From NCBI GenBank assembly GCA_018677115.1, contig JAHHOC010000278.1, positions 1 to 10,520 of the forward strand: a DNA stretch of 10,520 bases. Reading direction: 5' to 3'. The position numbers and the translations under genes were made by a program. This DNA is from Arenicella sp. Its GTDB lineage: Bacteria; Pseudomonadota; Gammaproteobacteria; Arenicellales; Arenicellaceae. A model generated the notes under the pieces. It was given only the letters and a program-made list of their open reading frames with translations. It was not told where the DNA came from and did not search any database. Positions within the stretch are counted from its first letter, which is position 1; each line of letters begins with the position of its first letter. Below are positions 2,005 through 8,182 of this stretch, piece after piece.

Positions 2005-4170
2005 ATGGCGATTGTCGCGCTTAGGAAGTCCACGCAACGGGGTGTCGAAATATGCCGATGGAACTTGGTAGCATTAATTGACCAACGCTGGGCCTTGTCC
2101 CTGAATGTAAACCGGTTTCACAGCAAGCAACGCAATCGCACTGGATATTCTGTCGCCTGGATTTTCAGCGATAATTTATCGAAGACTAAGTGGCGTAGTT
2201 CGTTGCTTGATTCAGGCTACCTGGAAAACTGCAGGGACGTAGCTCAAAATTTAACCGGCCGGGATTCGTATATTGACGCTTTTCTGGAAGCTACCGAAAA
2301 CGGATGCGTGTTCGCACCTTACAAACTGTGTGAGTCAAATGTCAAATCGGAAAGCGGACTAGATATTGAGATTGGAGGGTGCCGGATAACTATAGAGAAC
2401 TCCCTGGAAAATGCCTCAATTCGAATAATTGACAGAGAATTGGAAGTCGAAATACTAGGTGAGACGAAGGTCAGCAGGATATTCCAGTCCAGATTTCAGC
2501 AGTCCGAATCAATTTTCATAAACTCAGTTGAAAACCCCTGGTACAGATGCACATCGACTATCTCGCTTAATTCCTCGATACGTCAATATTTTTCGGGGGA
2601 TCTATGGGTTGATCGTCAGGACCTGTACGGCATTTCCCGGTCCGTAATATTAAAGGGTCTGATTCTCGATTGGTGCCTATTTTCAATTCGGCTGACTGGC
2701 AATAAGGTCATGCGAATATTCCAATCAGGCAACCGACATGAAGAGGTACAGGCTACGATATTCTCAACCGACGGTAAAACCAGAAAATTGAGTTCTCTGA
2801 GTCTTTCTGGACACGGCAAGTACGAGAGCCTGCGTACCTACAATAAATATCCCGGCGGCTGGTCGATTAGTGACGGAAAAGGTAAAGTCATGCTGGAAGT
2901 TATTCCTGTTGTTGACGATCAGGAGGTATATACGTTTTCGTTACAACGTGGGGTAATGCAGTACCACTGTACGGTCGAAGGGAAAGTCGACGGGCTAGAG
3001 GTGGATGGTACTGCAAATGTTGAAGCAACAGGTAGCCGATTTGATTTTAATGAGTTTTTCTGGGGACAGAAGAAAACCAACCTGGCCAGTCAATTGGAAG
3101 CATTTATTCCTGAGCAGGTTTCCGAGCGTTGGCTGCGGAGGTTATGCCGATCACGACAGCATATTAATCTAGACCTGGATGCATTGCAGAAGAGCATTAT
3201 CGCACCACTCTGGTCGATGATGAATCGCGGGGGTAAGGGGTGGAGAAGCACTTGGTATACGCTTTGTTGCCACGCGTTCGGCAATAGTATCGAGAATGAG
3301 CAGATTCGGGGGCTGTTACCAGTTACCGAACTTATTCATACGGGAAGCCTGATAATCGATGATATACAAGATCATTCACTCTTAAGGAGAGGAAAACCCG
3401 CTCTGCATACGGAAATAGGCACCGACCTTGCCATCAATGTTGGAAACTTCTGCTATTTCCTTCCGCTTTGCGTGGTGGACGAAATAAAAGGGCTAGATGA
3501 TGGTCAGCGTTACCGAATCCTGTCAATCGTTCTTGAAACTCTTCGCCTTGGGCATCTTGGCCAGGCGGTTGATCTGATGTGGTCAAATTCCAGAATGGAT
3601 GTTGCCGCAAAGCTTGAGGAAATAGAGCAAACAACCAATCAACTTATAGAGCAGTATAGAAGTAAGTCCGGCTGCCAGTTAAATGCCATAGCCAGAATAG
3701 CTGGAGAATTGAATCGTGCGCCTGCAGAACTGGTCCGGGCACTGGCAGACTATTCGGATTCATTTGGTGTGGTTTTTCAGATCATAGATGATGTGATCGA
3801 TGTGGTAGATGGAAAGGCTGTGCTTGGAAAGGAGAATAATGAGGATTTGCGTAATTTCAAACTGAATTTTGTCATGCTTAAGGCATTTGGATCTCTGGAT
3901 GCGTCTAGCCGGGTTAAGTGGTTTGAGAGGATTCAGTCTTCAGAGCAGGGTACGCGGACGAAACTTCTACTTAAACTCATTTATTCTACCGATGCAGTCC
4001 ATGCAGCATTGAGCGATGCATACGACATATACAATCAGTCTCTTAAAAAACTGGACAGCTTACCCGCAACCGATGCGAAACTGATGATGAAGTTGGTCCC
4101 CGCGTGGTTACTCGATCAACAACGAATTAAGCTCAAATCCTGGGAAGTAAAACTACAGCGGAAAAATTAG
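2005..4170 (+). CDS. AttH/CrtC-type lipocalin fused to trans-polyprenyl diphosphate synthase
   Basis: This 721-residue protein has two parts. Residues about 14-345 read as a two-lobed AttH/CrtC (carotenoid 1,2-hydratase-like) lipocalin domain. Cues are the beta-rich N-lobe, the second-lobe opener GDLWVDRQ (198-205), LDWCLFSIRL (221-230), which matches the family's W-x-W-F-x-x-Q/R-L strand, and the closing GTANVEATG (335-343), which matches G-x-G-Y-V-E-x-T-G. After a short linker, residues about 360-715 form a complete prenyl transferase: GGKGWR (409-414), first Asp motif DDIQD (452-456) with SLLRRG behind it, KSG (554-556), FQ (591-592) and second Asp motif DDVID (595-599). It should condense allylic diphosphates with IPP. 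FARM is plain DDxxD, and residues -4/-5 (Ser448, Gly447) are small, suggesting C20 or longer products. ATG 2005 is the first possible start in the open frame, but its ribosome binding site is weak. No signal peptide is seen, so it is probably cytosolic. The lipocalin role (cyclisation, hydration or lipid binding) is inferred. Confidence 0.85.
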   Translation: MAIVALRKSTQRGVEICRWNLVALIDQRWALSLNVNRFHSKQRNRTGYSVAWIFSDNLSKTKWRSSLLDSGYLENCRDVAQNLTGRDSYIDAFLEATENGCVFAPYKLCESNVKSESGLDIEIGGCRITIENSLENASIRIIDRELEVEILGETKVSRIFQSRFQQSESIFINSVENPWYRCTSTISLNSSIRQYFSGDLWVDRQDLYGISRSVILKGLILDWCLFSIRLTGNKVMRIFQSGNRHEEVQATIFSTDGKTRKLSSLSLSGHGKYESLRTYNKYPGGWSISDGKGKVMLEVIPVVDDQEVYTFSLQRGVMQYHCTVEGKVDGLEVDGTANVEATGSRFDFNEFFWGQKKTNLASQLEAFIPEQVSERWLRRLCRSRQHINLDLDALQKSIIAPLWSMMNRGGKGWRSTWYTLCCHAFGNSIENEQIRGLLPVTELIHTGSLIIDDIQDHSLLRRGKPALHTEIGTDLAINVGNFCYFLPLCVVDEIKGLDDGQRYRILSIVLETLRLGHLGQAVDLMWSNSRMDVAAKLEEIEQTTNQLIEQYRSKSGCQLNAIARIAGELNRAPAELVRALADYSDSFGVVFQIIDDVIDVVDGKAVLGKENNEDLRNFKLNFVMLKAFGSLDASSRVKWFERIQSSEQGTRTKLLLKLIYSTDAVHAALSDAYDIYNQSLKKLDSLPATDAKLMMKLVPAWLLDQQRIKLKSWEVKLQRKN

Positions 4171-4177
4171 CATTCGG

Positions 4178-4467
4178 ATGAAAGCAAAACAGTGCCGCCC
4201 AATTAGAATTTTGCTCTCATGCTTCAACCCTCTTTCCGCCTTCGCTGAATCCTCTGTATATACCGACGACCCGATTGCATATAACCACCATCAGGAAGCG
4301 GCTGCTTTGTTGCGGCGTTTTCACCTGACAGTCGAAGAACAAGGCGGTATGAAAATGCCCGGTTTCAAAGACAGCGCCGCGGTCAATCCAGTATGAGACA
4401 CAATTTTGGCAGTGGCCTCACAGAACGGCAATGCTATGATTTCATCGAGTATCTTAAAACCCTATAA
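4178..4467 (+). pseudogene. Small exported-protein gene split by a -1 frame change
   Basis: A first ORF (4178-4396, 72 residues) begins 7 bases after the fusion gene stop. It has a signal-peptide-like N-terminus (KAKQCRPIR, a hydrophobic stretch, then SAFA before ESS) and ends in a conserved-looking MKMPGFKDSAAVNPV. It stops at TGA 4394-4396, where an ATGA overlap opens a second ORF (4393-4467) of 24 residues starting MRHNFGSGLTERQCYDF. Read together with a -1 shift they make one protein of about 95 residues that fills the gap to the ABC gene, leaving 12 bases. The tail (LTERQCYDFIEYLKTL) resembles the C-terminal helix of small c-type cytochromes, and MPGF could recall a Met ligand, but no CxxCH haem site exists in either frame. 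I cannot name the family. Alternatives are a genuine frameshift mutation, a sequencing error, programmed frameshifting (no clear slippery heptamer seen) or two coupled small proteins. Confidence 0.5.
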
Positions 4468-4479
4468 CATTGACGAAAT

Positions 4480-5145
4480 ATGACAGCCACGCCGTTACTG
4501 ACGCTTGACCGGGTAAGCAAACGGTATGCTTCGCCCCAGCAGGCTGTGCTATCTGACGTTCAATTGTCGGTCGATGCCGGGGAACTAATCGCCATCACCG
4601 GTCCCAGTGGGAGCGGTAAATCCACCTTGTTATACATAATGTGTGGACTTGAAGACGCATCGTCCGGAGATATCGTCTTTGATGGAATAACTAATCCTTG
4701 TCGTAGAGATTGGGTGCATCTGCGTGCACGTCGAATCGGCCTAGTGTTCCAGGCCTTTAACCTCCTTGCTCAGCTGACCGCGTTGGAAAATATAGAGCTA
4801 CCGATGTTGGGTATTATTAATGACAGCGCAGAACGGAAAGAAAAAGCTGAGCATTTGCTCGAGCAGGTTGGCTTATCAAATCGCGCTACGCATCTCCCAC
4901 AGGAAATGTCCGGAGGAGAACAGCAACGGGTGGCAATTGCGCGCAGCCTGGCTAACTCGCCAGATATCCTGTTATGCGATGAACCAACCGGAAACCTAGA
5001 TAGCAAATCCGCCGCCCAGGTCCTCGATTTGTTAAATGAACGATATAACAGACAAGGTATGTCCCTCGTAATTGTGACGCACAATTCGGAAATTGCGTCG
5101 ACCTGTGACAGGTCGCTCCGCATTGTTGATGGTAAACTATCATGA
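4480..5145 (+). CDS. ABC transporter ATP-binding protein, LolD/MacB type
   Basis: The 221-residue nucleotide-binding subunit is expected to power a lipid, lipoprotein or hydrophobic-compound transporter from the cytosolic face of the inner membrane. All ABC motifs are present: Walker A GPSGSGKST (41-49), Q-loop Gln91 in VFQAFNLL, signature MSGGEQQR (143-150), Walker B ILLCDEPT (163-170) with catalytic Glu168, D-loop GNLDS (171-175) and switch His201. The FNLL segment after the Q-loop, the signature GGEQQR and the length match the LolD/YbbA/MacB group that pairs with FtsX-fold permeases. It ends in an ATGA overlap with the permease gene, so the two are translationally coupled and almost certainly form one complex. 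The ribosome binding site before the ATG is weak. The gene is also comparable in position to attE in attEFGH clusters, where an AttH lipocalin accompanies an ABC system. Confidence 0.95.
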   Translation: MTATPLLTLDRVSKRYASPQQAVLSDVQLSVDAGELIAITGPSGSGKSTLLYIMCGLEDASSGDIVFDGITNPCRRDWVHLRARRIGLVFQAFNLLAQLTALENIELPMLGIINDSAERKEKAEHLLEQVGLSNRATHLPQEMSGGEQQRVAIARSLANSPDILLCDEPTGNLDSKSAAQVLDLLNERYNRQGMSLVIVTHNSEIASTCDRSLRIVDGKLS

Positions 5146-6281
5146 GCCCTCTCACCTTGCCTTTTATTACCTTGCTCAGGCGTCCGGTTCGCAGTGGCCT
5201 GACCGTGTTGGGAATAGCCGTGGCGGTAGCAGGGATAATTTCTATACAGGGTCTGGTAAACGGCCTAGAAAAAGCATGGATCGGCGGAATTGAAAACCGG
5301 GGGACTTCGATAATAGGTGTGCGAAAAGGCGCTGTGGAATTACTTGGCGCCACTTTCCCGGCTGAAATCATCGAAGAGTTTGACTCATTTAACAACCTGG
5401 CTGCCGTAGCGGGTGAACTGGTCAGACTGGTAGATATTGACCCCAGCTTGGGTTTTGAAAGCCAGATGACGATTCTTTATGGATGGGACCCGGAACAGTA
5501 CCTGTGGCAAGAATTGGAGTTTAGTGAACGCGCTAATCGAATTCTCGAGACTGATGTCGAATTCGTTTTTCTTGGTCCGGCTAAGGCTGATCAGCTCGGA
5601 TTATCAGTGGGAGGCGACTTGGTCATACAGGACAGGACGTTTCCAGTTGCAGGAATCTTCATCCCTAAAGGGGTAATGATGAGCAACGCGATTATCATGC
5701 CATTATCGACCCTCCAGGAAACAACCGGTCTGGAAGGGAAAATAAATTTTCTCAATCTTCGCCTCAGGGCTGGTATCGACGAGGTGCTGGCTCGGGACCT
5801 CATAGTTGAGCTGTCATCTAAATTTAAGGATCTTAGGTTTACCGAGACCGGCCGACTTGCCGATACCGTTAGTTTCTTCGAAATATGGAAAGCGTTGTCC
5901 TGGGGAGCGTCCATAATTGTGCTGGGAATGGGAATTGTGATTACGCTCAACACTCTGTTGATGTCTGTTACAGAGCGAACTTGGGAGATCGGCGTTTTGT
6001 CCTCTATTGGCTGGGGAGATGGTCGTATTTTCAGATTAATCATGACCGAGGGGATGATCATTACCCTCGTAGGTGGAATAGCCGGAATTCTAATTGGCAT
6101 GGTAGGGCTAATTGCCCTTGCCGGAATACCCCTCATGGCTGGTTTCCTGTCGCCAGATTTTTCCGTTTTAGAGATTTTTAAAATCATCCTGTTTATCTTG
6201 GTGATGGGCTTCATAAGCAGTTACTACCCTGCGTATCGTGCTATACGTATCCAGCCCGCTGAAGCATTACGACATCACTAA
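5142..6281 (+). CDS. ABC transporter permease, FtsX/MacB fold
   Basis: This 379-residue inner-membrane permease has the type VII (MacB/LolCE-like) layout. It has one N-terminal membrane helix (about 19-39), a periplasmic domain of roughly 210 residues (about 42-250, MacB_PCD-like) and three C-terminal helices (about 253-276, 304-328, 345-363). The segment SVTERTWEIGVLSSIGWGDG (275-294) is the conserved cytosolic coupling region after helix 2, and the protein ends in the typical YPAYRAIRIQPAEAL (362-376). Such permeases do not usually channel substrate through the membrane; they drive extraction of lipids or lipoproteins or work with periplasmic partners. Only one permease gene is present, so a homodimer is expected, unlike LolC/LolE pairs. 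It starts inside the ATPase gene (ATGA) and ends 16 bases before the membrane-cyclase-like gene. The cargo is unknown; context suggests an isoprenoid or lipid. Confidence 0.93.
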   Translation: MSPLTLPFITLLRRPVRSGLTVLGIAVAVAGIISIQGLVNGLEKAWIGGIENRGTSIIGVRKGAVELLGATFPAEIIEEFDSFNNLAAVAGELVRLVDIDPSLGFESQMTILYGWDPEQYLWQELEFSERANRILETDVEFVFLGPAKADQLGLSVGGDLVIQDRTFPVAGIFIPKGVMMSNAIIMPLSTLQETTGLEGKINFLNLRLRAGIDEVLARDLIVELSSKFKDLRFTETGRLADTVSFFEIWKALSWGASIIVLGMGIVITLNTLLMSVTERTWEIGVLSSIGWGDGRIFRLIMTEGMIITLVGGIAGILIGMVGLIALAGIPLMAGFLSPDFSVLEIFKIILFILVMGFISSYYPAYRAIRIQPAEALRHH

Positions 6282-6286
6282 GTTGC

Positions 6287-6290
6287 GAGG
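6287..6290 (+). promoter_or_regulatory. Shine-Dalgarno GAGG deciding a TTG start
   Basis: GAGG at 6287-6290 lies 7 bases before TTG 6298-6300 and is one of the best ribosome binding sites in the array. No ATG is available near the expected N-terminus, so the TTG is taken as the true start of the membrane protein. Confidence 0.6.
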
Positions 6291-6297
6291 GTAAAAA

Positions 6298-7029
6298 TTG
6301 AGTCTCGAACCCAATATCGTTCAACAGTCCTCTCTATATTTCACAGCCAGTTTAACCCTGCTTAGTACCTACGTGCTGCTCTATTGGTGGAGGCGATCGT
6401 ATCGAAGCAGTAGTTTAATTTCAGCTTTAATGTCTATGACAACGGCGGTGTATGCGCTGGCATTTGTTCCTGAATATTGGAATCCACCGCAGTTGTTGAA
6501 AATTCATCCAGGTATCGAGGATATTATATTTTCATTTGCAAACGGCGGCATCGTATGGATATTGGCATGCCATCCTCGCCAGGAAAAAATGGTGGAAAAC
6601 CAGTTTGGAACAAAACTATTTCGTTATTTGATAGTTTCGGTTTCTTTCCTCATCATCCTGGCTGTACTCTGGTTTGCAGGTGTACCTGTAATGATAAGTG
6701 TGCTTGCATCATCAATGGTTGTTGCCCTATATCTTATAAAGTTCAGCTATAAAAATATGTGGTTTGCCGTTAGGGGGGGGATTTTGTTTACCTTAATGTA
6801 CATCTTGGGTTTATTCACTGTTCTCACCATCGAACCGGATGTTATTAATGCCTGGAATCACGAAAAGCTATTGGGGATAAGATTAATCGGAATTCCTCTG
6901 GAAGAATATCTATGGGCATTTTCCTACGGATTTATTTGGCCGATGTTTGTCAGATTTGTGTTGTTTGAGAATCCAATCCGTAGCGGGCAGAGTTCAATAC
7001 CGCCTGCAGCTAAGCGAACAAAAACATGA
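6298..7029 (+). CDS. Polytopic membrane protein, CrtYc/CrtYd lycopene-cyclase-like
   Basis: This is a 243-residue integral membrane protein with about seven hydrophobic segments, roughly at residues 13-30, 40-57, 74-91, 108-127, 130-147, 160-177 and 199-222. The strongest cue is LLGIRLIGIPLEEYLWAF (191-208), which matches the G-x-P-x-E-E-Y/F-x-F signature of the heterodimeric lycopene beta-cyclase family (CrtYc/CrtYd, lycopene cyclase domain). A weaker copy, IHPGIEDIIFSFANGG (69-84), occupies the same place in the first half, so the protein looks like an internal duplication corresponding to fused CrtYc-CrtYd. That family cyclises linear isoprenoid ends by proton-initiated chemistry in the membrane. 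No carotenoid backbone genes are near, so the substrate may be another prenyl chain. The start is TTG with GAGG 7 bases ahead. A run of eight G (6773-6780) lies in the codons for residues 159-161. Family assignment is fairly good; the activity is inferred. Confidence 0.72.
   Translation: MSLEPNIVQQSSLYFTASLTLLSTYVLLYWWRRSYRSSSLISALMSMTTAVYALAFVPEYWNPPQLLKIHPGIEDIIFSFANGGIVWILACHPRQEKMVENQFGTKLFRYLIVSVSFLIILAVLWFAGVPVMISVLASSMVVALYLIKFSYKNMWFAVRGGILFTLMYILGLFTVLTIEPDVINAWNHEKLLGIRLIGIPLEEYLWAFSYGFIWPMFVRFVLFENPIRSGQSSIPPAAKRTKT
6773..6780 (+). repeat. G8 homopolymer inside the membrane-protein gene
   Basis: Eight consecutive G residues encode part of Arg-Gly-Gly (159-161). Such tracts are prone to slipped-strand change; gain or loss of one base would truncate the protein before its PLEEY motif. 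It could be a phase-variation site or simply a sequence-quality risk. Confidence 0.6.
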
Positions 7030-7249: not shown

Positions 7250-8182
7250 CTATGAACCAGGATCCACAACACATTGTTCTTCAAGGCGTGATATGCCCCC
7301 ATCCAGAACATACAGATAGGTCGGCAAACTGTGGTAGCAGGCAATGCTGTGTTTAATCCGTTTAATCGGGTGTGAGTCAATCTCAAGTTCATGCCAGATA
7401 TGACGATAACCAAAATAGGGGGCCGGTACGCGGGGAATGAGATCGGGTTTGTTGACCACCCGCACACTGTTTTTGATGCGCGACTGGAAAGCGCTTACAA
7501 ATTTAGCATCGCCGGTCAGCGGCGAAGCAAAGGTCAATAGTTCCACTTCGTCAGCATAATCCGAGATCGTGGCGTTAAACGCCACCAGCGTAGCCAGTGA
7601 CGATCCCAGGCTATGACCTACGACGATAATCCGGTTGAGTCTGTGTTTCAGCCCGCGCATGAACGTATCCAGCTGAACAAATACCGCCGCATCGGGCTTT
7701 GACACCGTAAAACTGGCGAATATTTCCTTAAATCCTAATTCGACACGGCCAAAGTCGCGGTTATCGTTGTAATGCACCTTGCCCAGCTTCCAATCGTCAA
7801 TCCATTCCTGTCTGTCCGAAGTGCCGCGAATGCTGATAACCAGCACGCCGTGCTGTTCTGGCCCCAGCCACGATAAATGGCCGTATAACTCCTTACGGCC
7901 TTTACTGCTATCCATGCCCTGTAAATTGGCGATGGGTGTGAATCCGGCCTGGAACGGCGAGGGAAACGGTGGATTGGGGTCATTCCTGTTGTCCTTCAAC
8001 TGGGCATCAAAAATCTTATAAGCGAGATTAACCAGTCTGCCAAATGTCAGTATGGCCGGTTTATCAAAGCCCAGAGCAGCGGACTGCTCCATGTCTATCG
8101 GGTATTCCGGCTTCACAATGCCGCAAGCGGACAATGACAGCACGATTGCCAAAAGCAAAACAGTTTTCCAGATTCCAGTCAT
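7250..8182 (-). CDS. Class 3 lipase family lipoprotein
   Basis: The 310-residue protein begins with a lipoprotein signal: MTGIWK, a hydrophobic core, then lipobox LSAC with acylated Cys20. It should be anchored to the inner or outer membrane; Gly at +2 does not indicate inner-membrane retention. The body is an alpha/beta hydrolase of the class 3 (Rhizomucor-type) lipase family. Visible features are SIRGTSDRQEWIDDW (117-131) with the oxyanion-hole RGT, the nucleophile elbow GHSLG (189-193) with catalytic Ser191, the following FASPLTGD (218-225), a probable catalytic Asp in KPDLIPRVP (Asp247) and His284 in CYHSLPTYL. It is expected to cleave acylglycerol or phospholipid esters. It converges on the isoprenoid array and has no same-strand neighbour close by, so it is probably monocistronic. 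The ATG at 8182 gives the signal peptide at once; only a weak GAG precedes it. Family secure, substrate unknown. Confidence 0.92.
   Translation of the reverse strand: MTGIWKTVLLLAIVLSLSACGIVKPEYPIDMEQSAALGFDKPAILTFGRLVNLAYKIFDAQLKDNRNDPNPPFPSPFQAGFTPIANLQGMDSSKGRKELYGHLSWLGPEQHGVLVISIRGTSDRQEWIDDWKLGKVHYNDNRDFGRVELGFKEIFASFTVSKPDAAVFVQLDTFMRGLKHRLNRIIVVGHSLGSSLATLVAFNATISDYADEVELLTFASPLTGDAKFVSAFQSRIKNSVRVVNKPDLIPRVPAPYFGYRHIWHELEIDSHPIKRIKHSIACYHSLPTYLYVLDGGISRLEEQCVVDPGS

Follow-up and report, generated by a model that had tools for sequence, protein, structure and literature searches.

A Putative Cassette for Making and Moving an Isoprenoid in Arenicella: a Lipocalin–Prenyl Synthase Fusion, an ABC Pair, and a Membrane Protein of the Lycopene Cyclase Family

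Introduction

How few genes might a bacterium need to make an isoprenoid chain, reshape it within the membrane, and hand it on to the cell envelope? The question is raised by a stretch of DNA from Arenicella sp. (assembly GCA_018677115.1, contig JAHHOC010000278.1), 10,520 nucleotides long, which we analysed whole and call the window. Between positions 2005 and 7029 it holds four open frames, all on the plus strand: a fusion of a CrtC/AttH-type lipocalin with a type-III-like geranylgeranyl diphosphate (GGPP) synthase, a LolD/MacB-type ATP-binding cassette (ABC) ATPase, an FtsX/MacB-type permease, and a membrane protein of the lycopene cyclase family, which we call LCYC. An original prediction, made from the letters of the sequence, had seen here five tightly packed genes for isoprenoid synthesis and transport, the fifth being a small exported protein.

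In this paper, we ask which of these genes belong together, what each is likely to do, and whether the whole adds up to a pathway. In short, the synthesis-and-transport unit is well supported, on three loci, within one clade of the fusion family, and the chemistry that we attach to it is a reasoned guess. We found no description of the fusion or of the cassette in the open-licence PMC literature that we searched, and the combination of genes seems to be undescribed.

Four Genes in One Apparent Unit

The fusion (2005–4170, 721 residues, with PF17186 and PF00348) is followed by the ATPase (4480–5145, 221 residues, PF00005), a single-length permease (5142–6281, 379 residues, PF12704 and PF02687), and LCYC (6298–7029, 243 residues, from a TTG start, PF18916). 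All four score above the cut-offs of their Pfam families, and in naming them the original prediction was right. The ATPase and permease frames overlap by 4 bases (5142–5145), 16 bases separate the permease from LCYC, and 309 bases lie between the stop of the fusion and the start of the ATPase, the only junction at which a separate promoter might sit.

What makes four neighbors on one contig more than neighbors? The answer comes from other genomes. We scanned one genome per species (84,980 in all) with the fusion alignment and two short peptide patterns, and of the 272 relatives that this confirmed, what follows concerns the 80 best. Lipocalin and synthase parts occur together at 29 loci in 28 genomes (at one, L030, as two adjacent open reading frames, or ORFs). 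In a tree of 47 fusion proteins, 27 rows form a clade, clade A, with support of 100/100. Besides the window's protein and those of two further loci, which we call L004 and L005, this clade contains 24 proteins from databases. One of these, P0024, is the protein of L005 itself; that of L004, P0017, was kept out of the tree as a duplicate.

L004, in a gammaproteobacterial metagenome-assembled genome (MAG), has fusion, ATPase, permease, and LCYC in the order of the window and with the same 4-base overlap of ATPase and permease; the proteins are 39, 51, 39, and 40% identical to the window's, respectively, with the permease at 38.5% over 374 residues. Queries made from the window's alcohol dehydrogenase, lipase, two methyltransferases, and N1 found no ORF match in 22 kb of L004. 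Because L004 repeats the four-gene order with different flanks, the cassette is more than a chance grouping. L005, in a Vicinamibacteria MAG, has the fusion and LCYC and then a 1056-residue MMPL protein with a C-terminal LolA domain, the LCYC and MMPL-LolA frames overlapping at 12809–12812. Since this transporter is unrelated to that of the window and L004, two different envelope transporters follow the same core of fusion and LCYC. Both loci were retrieved with the fusion, not LCYC, as query, and all three clade A loci of known context carry LCYC together with an envelope transporter. The idea that these genes form one unit, thus, survives.

The cassette is sporadic in its distribution and may well have moved horizontally. 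The full fusion occurs in 2 of 109 genomes of the window's taxonomic order, namely the window's own (G000) and the L004 MAG (G033, also numbered G474), and it is missing from all 17 of the other congeners.

The fifth gene did not fare so well. A 72-codon frame (4178–4396, plus strand) opens 7 bases past the fusion and closes with TGA at 4394–4396, 83 bases short of the ATPase. It has no Pfam match above the cut-off (best E value, 0.13), no match in 17 congeneric genomes, and no counterpart in L004 or L005; a 19-residue hydropathy scan, of a kind that would miss a short signal, found no hydrophobic segment. A different frame is open for 24 codons at 4393–4467, and this stretch, which was apparently fused to the small ORF in the earlier account and possibly is the remnant of a small gene, is what had yielded a gap of 12 bases. 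Of the gaps once given (7, 12, −4, and 16), then, the others are correct and the 12 requires a change of frame. In view of the stop at 4396, the lack of a Pfam match, and the absence from both related cassettes and 17 congeners, we rejected the small ORF, which is probably not a cassette gene, and four of the five packed same-strand genes are borne out by frames and domains. An Rfam search of the window gave no match, and scans for promoters (12, against a shuffled mean of 9.3, SD 3.4) and terminators (6, against 5.7, SD 2.6) came out near chance.

The Fusion Protein

The synthase half, which retains 98 of 108 near-invariant positions, carries a polyprenyl synthetase domain at residues 398–644 (3196–3936, plus strand; PF00348, 148.8 bits). 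Both Asp-rich motifs of a type III GGPP synthase are intact: DDIQD at residues 452–456 (3358–3372, plus strand), where D452, D453, and D456 are invariant in our alignment A1, and DDVID at 595–599 (3787–3801, plus strand), where D595 and D596 are. For the segment that runs from just before DDIQD to GHxGQ, the best matches among solved structures are the prenyl domains of fungal terpene synthases and the GGPP synthases of animals and yeast; the matched structures 6v0k and 7s0x we take to be GGPP-making domains. The residues at −4 and −5 before DDIQD are small and non-aromatic (Ser/Gly), as in enzymes that stop at C20, and Tyr484–Phe485 and His517 align with NYVYF and LHRGQ of the solved fungal domains. 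In PMC9729869, type III enzymes are said to be kept from going beyond C20 by residues at these Tyr-Phe and His positions. To judge by such residues, the product would be GGPP (C20), and longer chains are also possible.

The lipocalin half has changed more. A Lipocalin_9 stretch is found at residues 223–320 (2671–2964, plus strand; PF17186, 32.0 bits against a cut-off of 26.2), and before it, at 2611–2625 on the plus strand, the window reads DRQDL, a degenerate form of a motif that is DHQWG in most clade A relatives. Near-invariant lipocalin positions are retained at 32 of 50 in the window, 40 of 40 in L004, and 34 of 49 in L005. Of the two domains expected of CrtC, the window has only PF17186 above its cut-off and lacks PF07143, whereas L004 has both and keeps DHQWG; the L004 lipocalin half also matches PDB entry 2ich, “Putative AttH,” with an E value of 7.7e-13. 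Carotenoid hydratases, the CrtC lipocalin family, add a proton at the distal end of their prenyl chain, as set out in part of PMC4717167, and DHQW is presumably the counterpart of the H239-x-W241 given there, the alignment being one without a CrtC sequence. By that equation the catalytic His-x-Trp is missing from the window. The relevant portion of PMC12402844 has Rubrivivax CrtC also hydrating C12–C20 terpenes, among them geranylgeraniol (4%) and geranyllinalool (25%). Because the window has lost DHQWG and its near-invariant positions are eroded, its lipocalin is more likely to be a binding or hand-over domain than a hydratase. No hydrophobic segment for export or membrane insertion was found in the fusion by the 19-residue scan, the N-terminus being judged by eye.

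The Transporter and the Membrane Protein

The ABC pair resembles MacB, and LolCDE less so. The best NCBIfam match of the ATPase is LolD, at 222.6 bits against a cut-off of 307.75; the permease reaches 60.0 bits against the 362.45 asked of LolC/E. The permease does fall within the MacB/FtsX superfamily (PF12704, 57.2 bits; PF02687, 61.3 bits), and the solved structures closest to it in sequence are MacB chains, with LolE and LolC ranking lower.

LCYC scores 39.4 bits against PF18916 (Lycopene_cyc; cut-off, 27). It carries FVPEYW at residues 56–61 (6463–6480, plus strand), followed by GxED at 72–75, and PLEE at 200–203 (6895–6906, plus strand). In our alignment of 96 rows, Y60, W61, P63, E74, and F78 are identical in every row, as is E203, and E202 is present in 94. 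An acidic motif in each half of the protein (E74 and E203) would fit a ring closure that is started by acid. The tree of these 96 rows separates a group 1 of 32 (support, 100/99), which includes the window, L004, and L005, from the other 64, our group 2; because the tree program flags long branches, the window's among them, its exact position within group 1 is unsure. Group 1 has G72, D75, and W206 in all 32 rows; of the 64 rows in group 2, 62 have D72, 62 have S75, and 61 have F206. The combination of FVP(E/Q)YW, GxED, and PxExxW was seen, among 30 other classified loci, only in L192 and L193, the very loci that we otherwise call L004 and L005. A third form of the protein (F..DWW, GIEDFLF, PxEDFxW) occurs at L213, L214, and L215, in one family of the same phylum, and stands outside the tree.

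How common are such proteins, and what company do they keep? Our genome draws (gammaproteobacteria, the phylum of L005, and a phylum sample queried with group 1 LCYC) are samples of larger groups. Relatives of LCYC were found in 28 of 369 gammaproteobacteria, a count that includes the window's genome and several fragments, and of these 28 only the window's genome also has the fusion; at D72 and S75, all 20 loci drawn from gammaproteobacteria are of the group 2 kind. (Several of these group 2 matches, L105–L124, have internal stops.) In L005's phylum, 3 of 396 genomes, L005's own included, have LCYC at E ≤ 1e-10, and a phylum sample of 398 genomes queried with group 1 LCYC gave the window's genome and four distant carriers. 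The six contexts fetched from those four carriers contain no fusion, and the 18 fetched group 2 contexts contain no ORF matching a GGPP synthase or lipocalin profile, the longest-ORF filter having removed the LCYC ORF itself in 5 of them (L134–L138). Neither the LCYC alignment nor that of the fusion picked up a relative in IMG/VR, and a plasmid search with the L004 LCYC found a single distant match.

Two relatives on plasmids have neighbors of some interest. In Ilyobacter polytropus (L206, 7926–9524), a prenyltransferase gene lies directly after the LCYC relative, and in Methylophaga thalassica (L204, 1221–13916), the relative sits amid membrane-lipid genes (a cyclopropane synthase, a fatty acid cis/trans isomerase, and a phospholipase-D-like gene) and an exporter made of a membrane fusion protein and ABC components.

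Discussion

We think it a little better than an even bet that the four genes are a small, sporadic isoprenoid pathway, in which a chain is made, cyclised at its omega end in the membrane, and exported. The product of the fusion would be an all-trans prenyl diphosphate, with C20 GGPP the likeliest, and the lipocalin half would hold or deliver the chain and, in relatives with the motif intact, might also hydrate the far end. LCYC would then protonate and close the omega end of the chain, or of a lipid derived from it, in the manner of a lycopene cyclase working on a non-carotenoid substrate. LolD-FtsX could lift the product from the inner membrane toward the periplasm or outer membrane, a step that in the Vicinamibacteria version would fall to the MMPL-LolA fusion. 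The length of the product, its cyclisation, the cargo of the transporter, and the destination are, in this scheme, what we infer from the genes. A bolder and more tentative proposal, possible rather than probable in our view, is that the cassette stands for a hitherto undescribed class of cyclic C20 envelope lipids, marked by a lipocalin-fused GGPP synthase, cyclisation without phytoene by a new subgroup of lycopene cyclases, and interchangeable transporters (LolD-FtsX or MMPL-LolA), and that it is one branch of the wider fusion family.

A good deal weighs against such a pathway, and we would rather put it all in one place. LCYC falls short of the NCBIfam lycopene-cyclase domain TIGR03462 (19.4 against 39.4 bits), the DHQWG motif of the lipocalin is lost in the window, and nothing in the window's cassette is a phosphatase, a transferase, or a periplasmic carrier, which leaves head group and cargo unexplained. 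With the whole synthase domain as profile, an archaeal GGPP synthase heads the solved structures that match, with decaprenyl and octaprenyl synthases next; with the window's sequence alone, an octaprenyl synthase ranks first, and all of the NCBIfam chain-length models listed score far under their own cut-offs. The bins are 82% (G000) and 86% (the L004 MAG) complete, so that a phytoene synthase could be missed. Context is known for only three clade A loci, all in MAGs. Beyond clade A, the company thins: 26 of the 28 fusion genomes have no LCYC, which among these 28 is confined to the two of clade A (a PF18916 search in seven fusion genomes found none), and a transporter match lies within 4 kb at only 5 of 29 loci outside clade A (27 genome loci and two plasmids), 2 of the 5 being RND pumps that may be unrelated. 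This last test used ten queries, several of them from the same loci, so that other types of transporter may be missed and self-matches count, and L006 has less than 4 kb on both sides. The notion that the fusion family at large is tied to LCYC or to ABC genes we rejected on these counts (26 of 28 genomes; 24 of 29 loci), and the neighborhood survey proposed at the outset, with the fusion as query, thus upholds co-occurrence with LCYC within clade A (3 of 3 loci) and denies it to the wider family.

Might the locus then belong to carotenoid synthesis after all, with the fusion supplying GGPP and LCYC cyclising a carotenoid, lycopene or a relative of it, whose synthesis is encoded elsewhere in the genome? 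LCYC is, after all, a member of PF18916, the lipocalin half is of the carotenoid hydratase family, and the phytoene/squalene synthase family PF00494 is present in 12 of 14 tested gammaproteobacteria with group 2 LCYC. Against this, no PF00494 was found in either genome with the four-gene form (G000 and G474), which agrees with the original claim that phytoene synthase is absent, nor in three congeners that are each 99% complete (G001, G016, and G017); desaturases were not searched. G475 does have PF00494, as two tandem copies on another contig, and hopanoid-type squalene synthases occur as just such a tandem pair. Over all 23 genomes tested, PF00494 is present in 15. We consider a carotenoid-tailoring locus rather unlikely. 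It is unlikely too, if a shade less so, that LCYC is no cyclase and instead binds prenols in the membrane or works on head groups, an acyclic prenyl lipid being exported. Its shortfall against the curated lycopene-cyclase domain and the settings of the Ilyobacter and Methylophaga relatives speak for such a role, and the acidic motif kept in each half across all 96 rows speaks against it.

A variant of the attEFGH cluster, in which an AttH-type lipocalin and an ABC exporter have acquired a fused prenyl synthase and LCYC as an accessory, all for lipid export of the kind that att clusters may carry out, would account for the AttH-like fold seen in the match of L004 to 2ich and for the presence together of a LolD-like ATPase, an FtsX-type permease, and a lipocalin in 9 of the 15 att-type loci that we fetched. 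The att permeases, however, have 831–852 residues where the window's has 379, the three that we compared are 23–28% identical to it over part of their length (L004 is 38.5%), and most of 13 att lipocalins begin, by eye, with a hydrophobic or lipobox-like stretch that the fusions lack. Direct membership of an att cluster we rejected on the size of the permease, the fused state of the lipocalin, and the missing N-terminal stretch; the variant we regard as quite unlikely. That the genes are chance neighbors on one MAG contig is a thought invited by a 10.5-kb contig from an 82% complete bin of 510 contigs and by 17 of 17 congeners without the fusion. It is contradicted already by L004, with its identical order, and again by the core pair in L005, and we think it very improbable indeed.

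If the pathway that we favor is real, carotenoid-type membrane cyclases have a role beyond carotenoid synthesis, and bacteria possess a compact route to cyclic isoprenoid lipids of the envelope. It would also open up a family of lipocalin–GGPP synthase fusions that is apparently unstudied, and the cassette is a set of only four genes that can be tested in Escherichia coli.

The Wider Fusion Family and the Flanks

Fusions of this family are seen in Pseudomonadota, Acidobacteriota, Bacteroidota, Actinomycetota, Cyanobacteriota, Verrucomicrobiota, and haloarchaea. Some are about 1500 residues long: one on a Tolypothrix plasmid (L207, 7145–11674) and two in haloarchaea (L011, 7334–11818, and L037, 6878–11362). 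The domain scan covered L207 and L011 and found sulfotransferase, glycosyltransferase, CrtC lipocalin, and GGPP synthase domains in each; L037 has the length of L011 and similar neighbors. Among the neighbors of the Tolypothrix fusion are DevC, an ABC ATPase, and a membrane fusion protein. In Spirosoma (L007, 9083–18454), the fusion is followed by a lipase maturation factor, an FkbM methyltransferase, a glycosyltransferase like monogalactosyldiacylglycerol synthase, and two genes of a single P450 family (one of them scanned), a set that looks like a glycosylated terpenoid cluster and has similar counterparts in L008, L012, and L046. ABC-2-type transporter genes adjoin the fusion in S. canus and Nocardiopsis, and in the Streptomyces protein P0038, an ABC-2-type permease is itself fused to a polyprenyl synthase (38% identity to the S. 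canus permease over 245 residues). Judged by their domains and neighbors, these other fusions point to terpenoids that may be made and modified, and sometimes exported.

In the window, genes on the minus strand flank the cassette, an alcohol dehydrogenase at 635–1621 and a class 3 lipase at 7250–8182; the N-terminus of the lipase weakly resembles LptM-type lipoprotein signals, below the cut-off.

Comparison with Known Systems

The system that comes first to mind, and that the original prediction invoked, is attEFGH, or LolD-FtsX-AttH, which likewise brings a LolD-type ATPase, a permease of the FtsX superfamily, and a lipocalin of the AttH/CrtC fold into a single locus. The parallel is a loose one: the gene types are shared, whereas the window's permease is less than half the size of those in nine att-type loci, its lipocalin is fused to a prenyl synthase and has no N-terminal hydrophobic stretch where the att AttH is a separate gene, LCYC is extra, and the order of the genes differs.

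For single parts, the likenesses are closer. With CrtC the fusion shares its fold and, in L004, both domains and the DHQWG motif; it differs in being joined to a GGPP-type synthase, in the loss of that motif from the window, and in that neither G000 nor G474 yielded a PF00494 match. With CrtYc/Yd and CarR, the membrane lycopene cyclases, LCYC shares PF18916 and an acidic motif in each half, and yet it forms a subgroup of its own (FVPEYW, GxED, PLEExxW), scores below TIGR03462, and comes from genomes in two of three of which PF00494 was not found. Type III GGPP synthases and the fungal chimeras of synthase and cyclase are nearest in the active-site segment, and the chimeras, like our fusion, join a chain-making domain to another. 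However, longer-chain bacterial synthases match the whole domain equally well, and a lipocalin here takes the place of the alpha-helical terpene cyclase, in a prokaryote and with transporter genes adjacent.

For export, two systems invite comparison. DevBCA-type exporters export glycolipids, and the Tolypothrix fusion lies close to genes of this kind; the window has no membrane fusion protein, and the Tolypothrix protein adds sulfotransferase and glycosyltransferase domains. For aryl polyenes, the route to the outer membrane proposed in the pertinent part of PMC8253772 runs through an RND-family transporter and LolA- and LolB-like proteins. L005, with an MMPL protein bearing a LolA domain directly after its biosynthesis genes, recalls that arrangement, its genes being of the isoprenoid rather than the polyketide kind, and the window puts an ABC pair in the same place.

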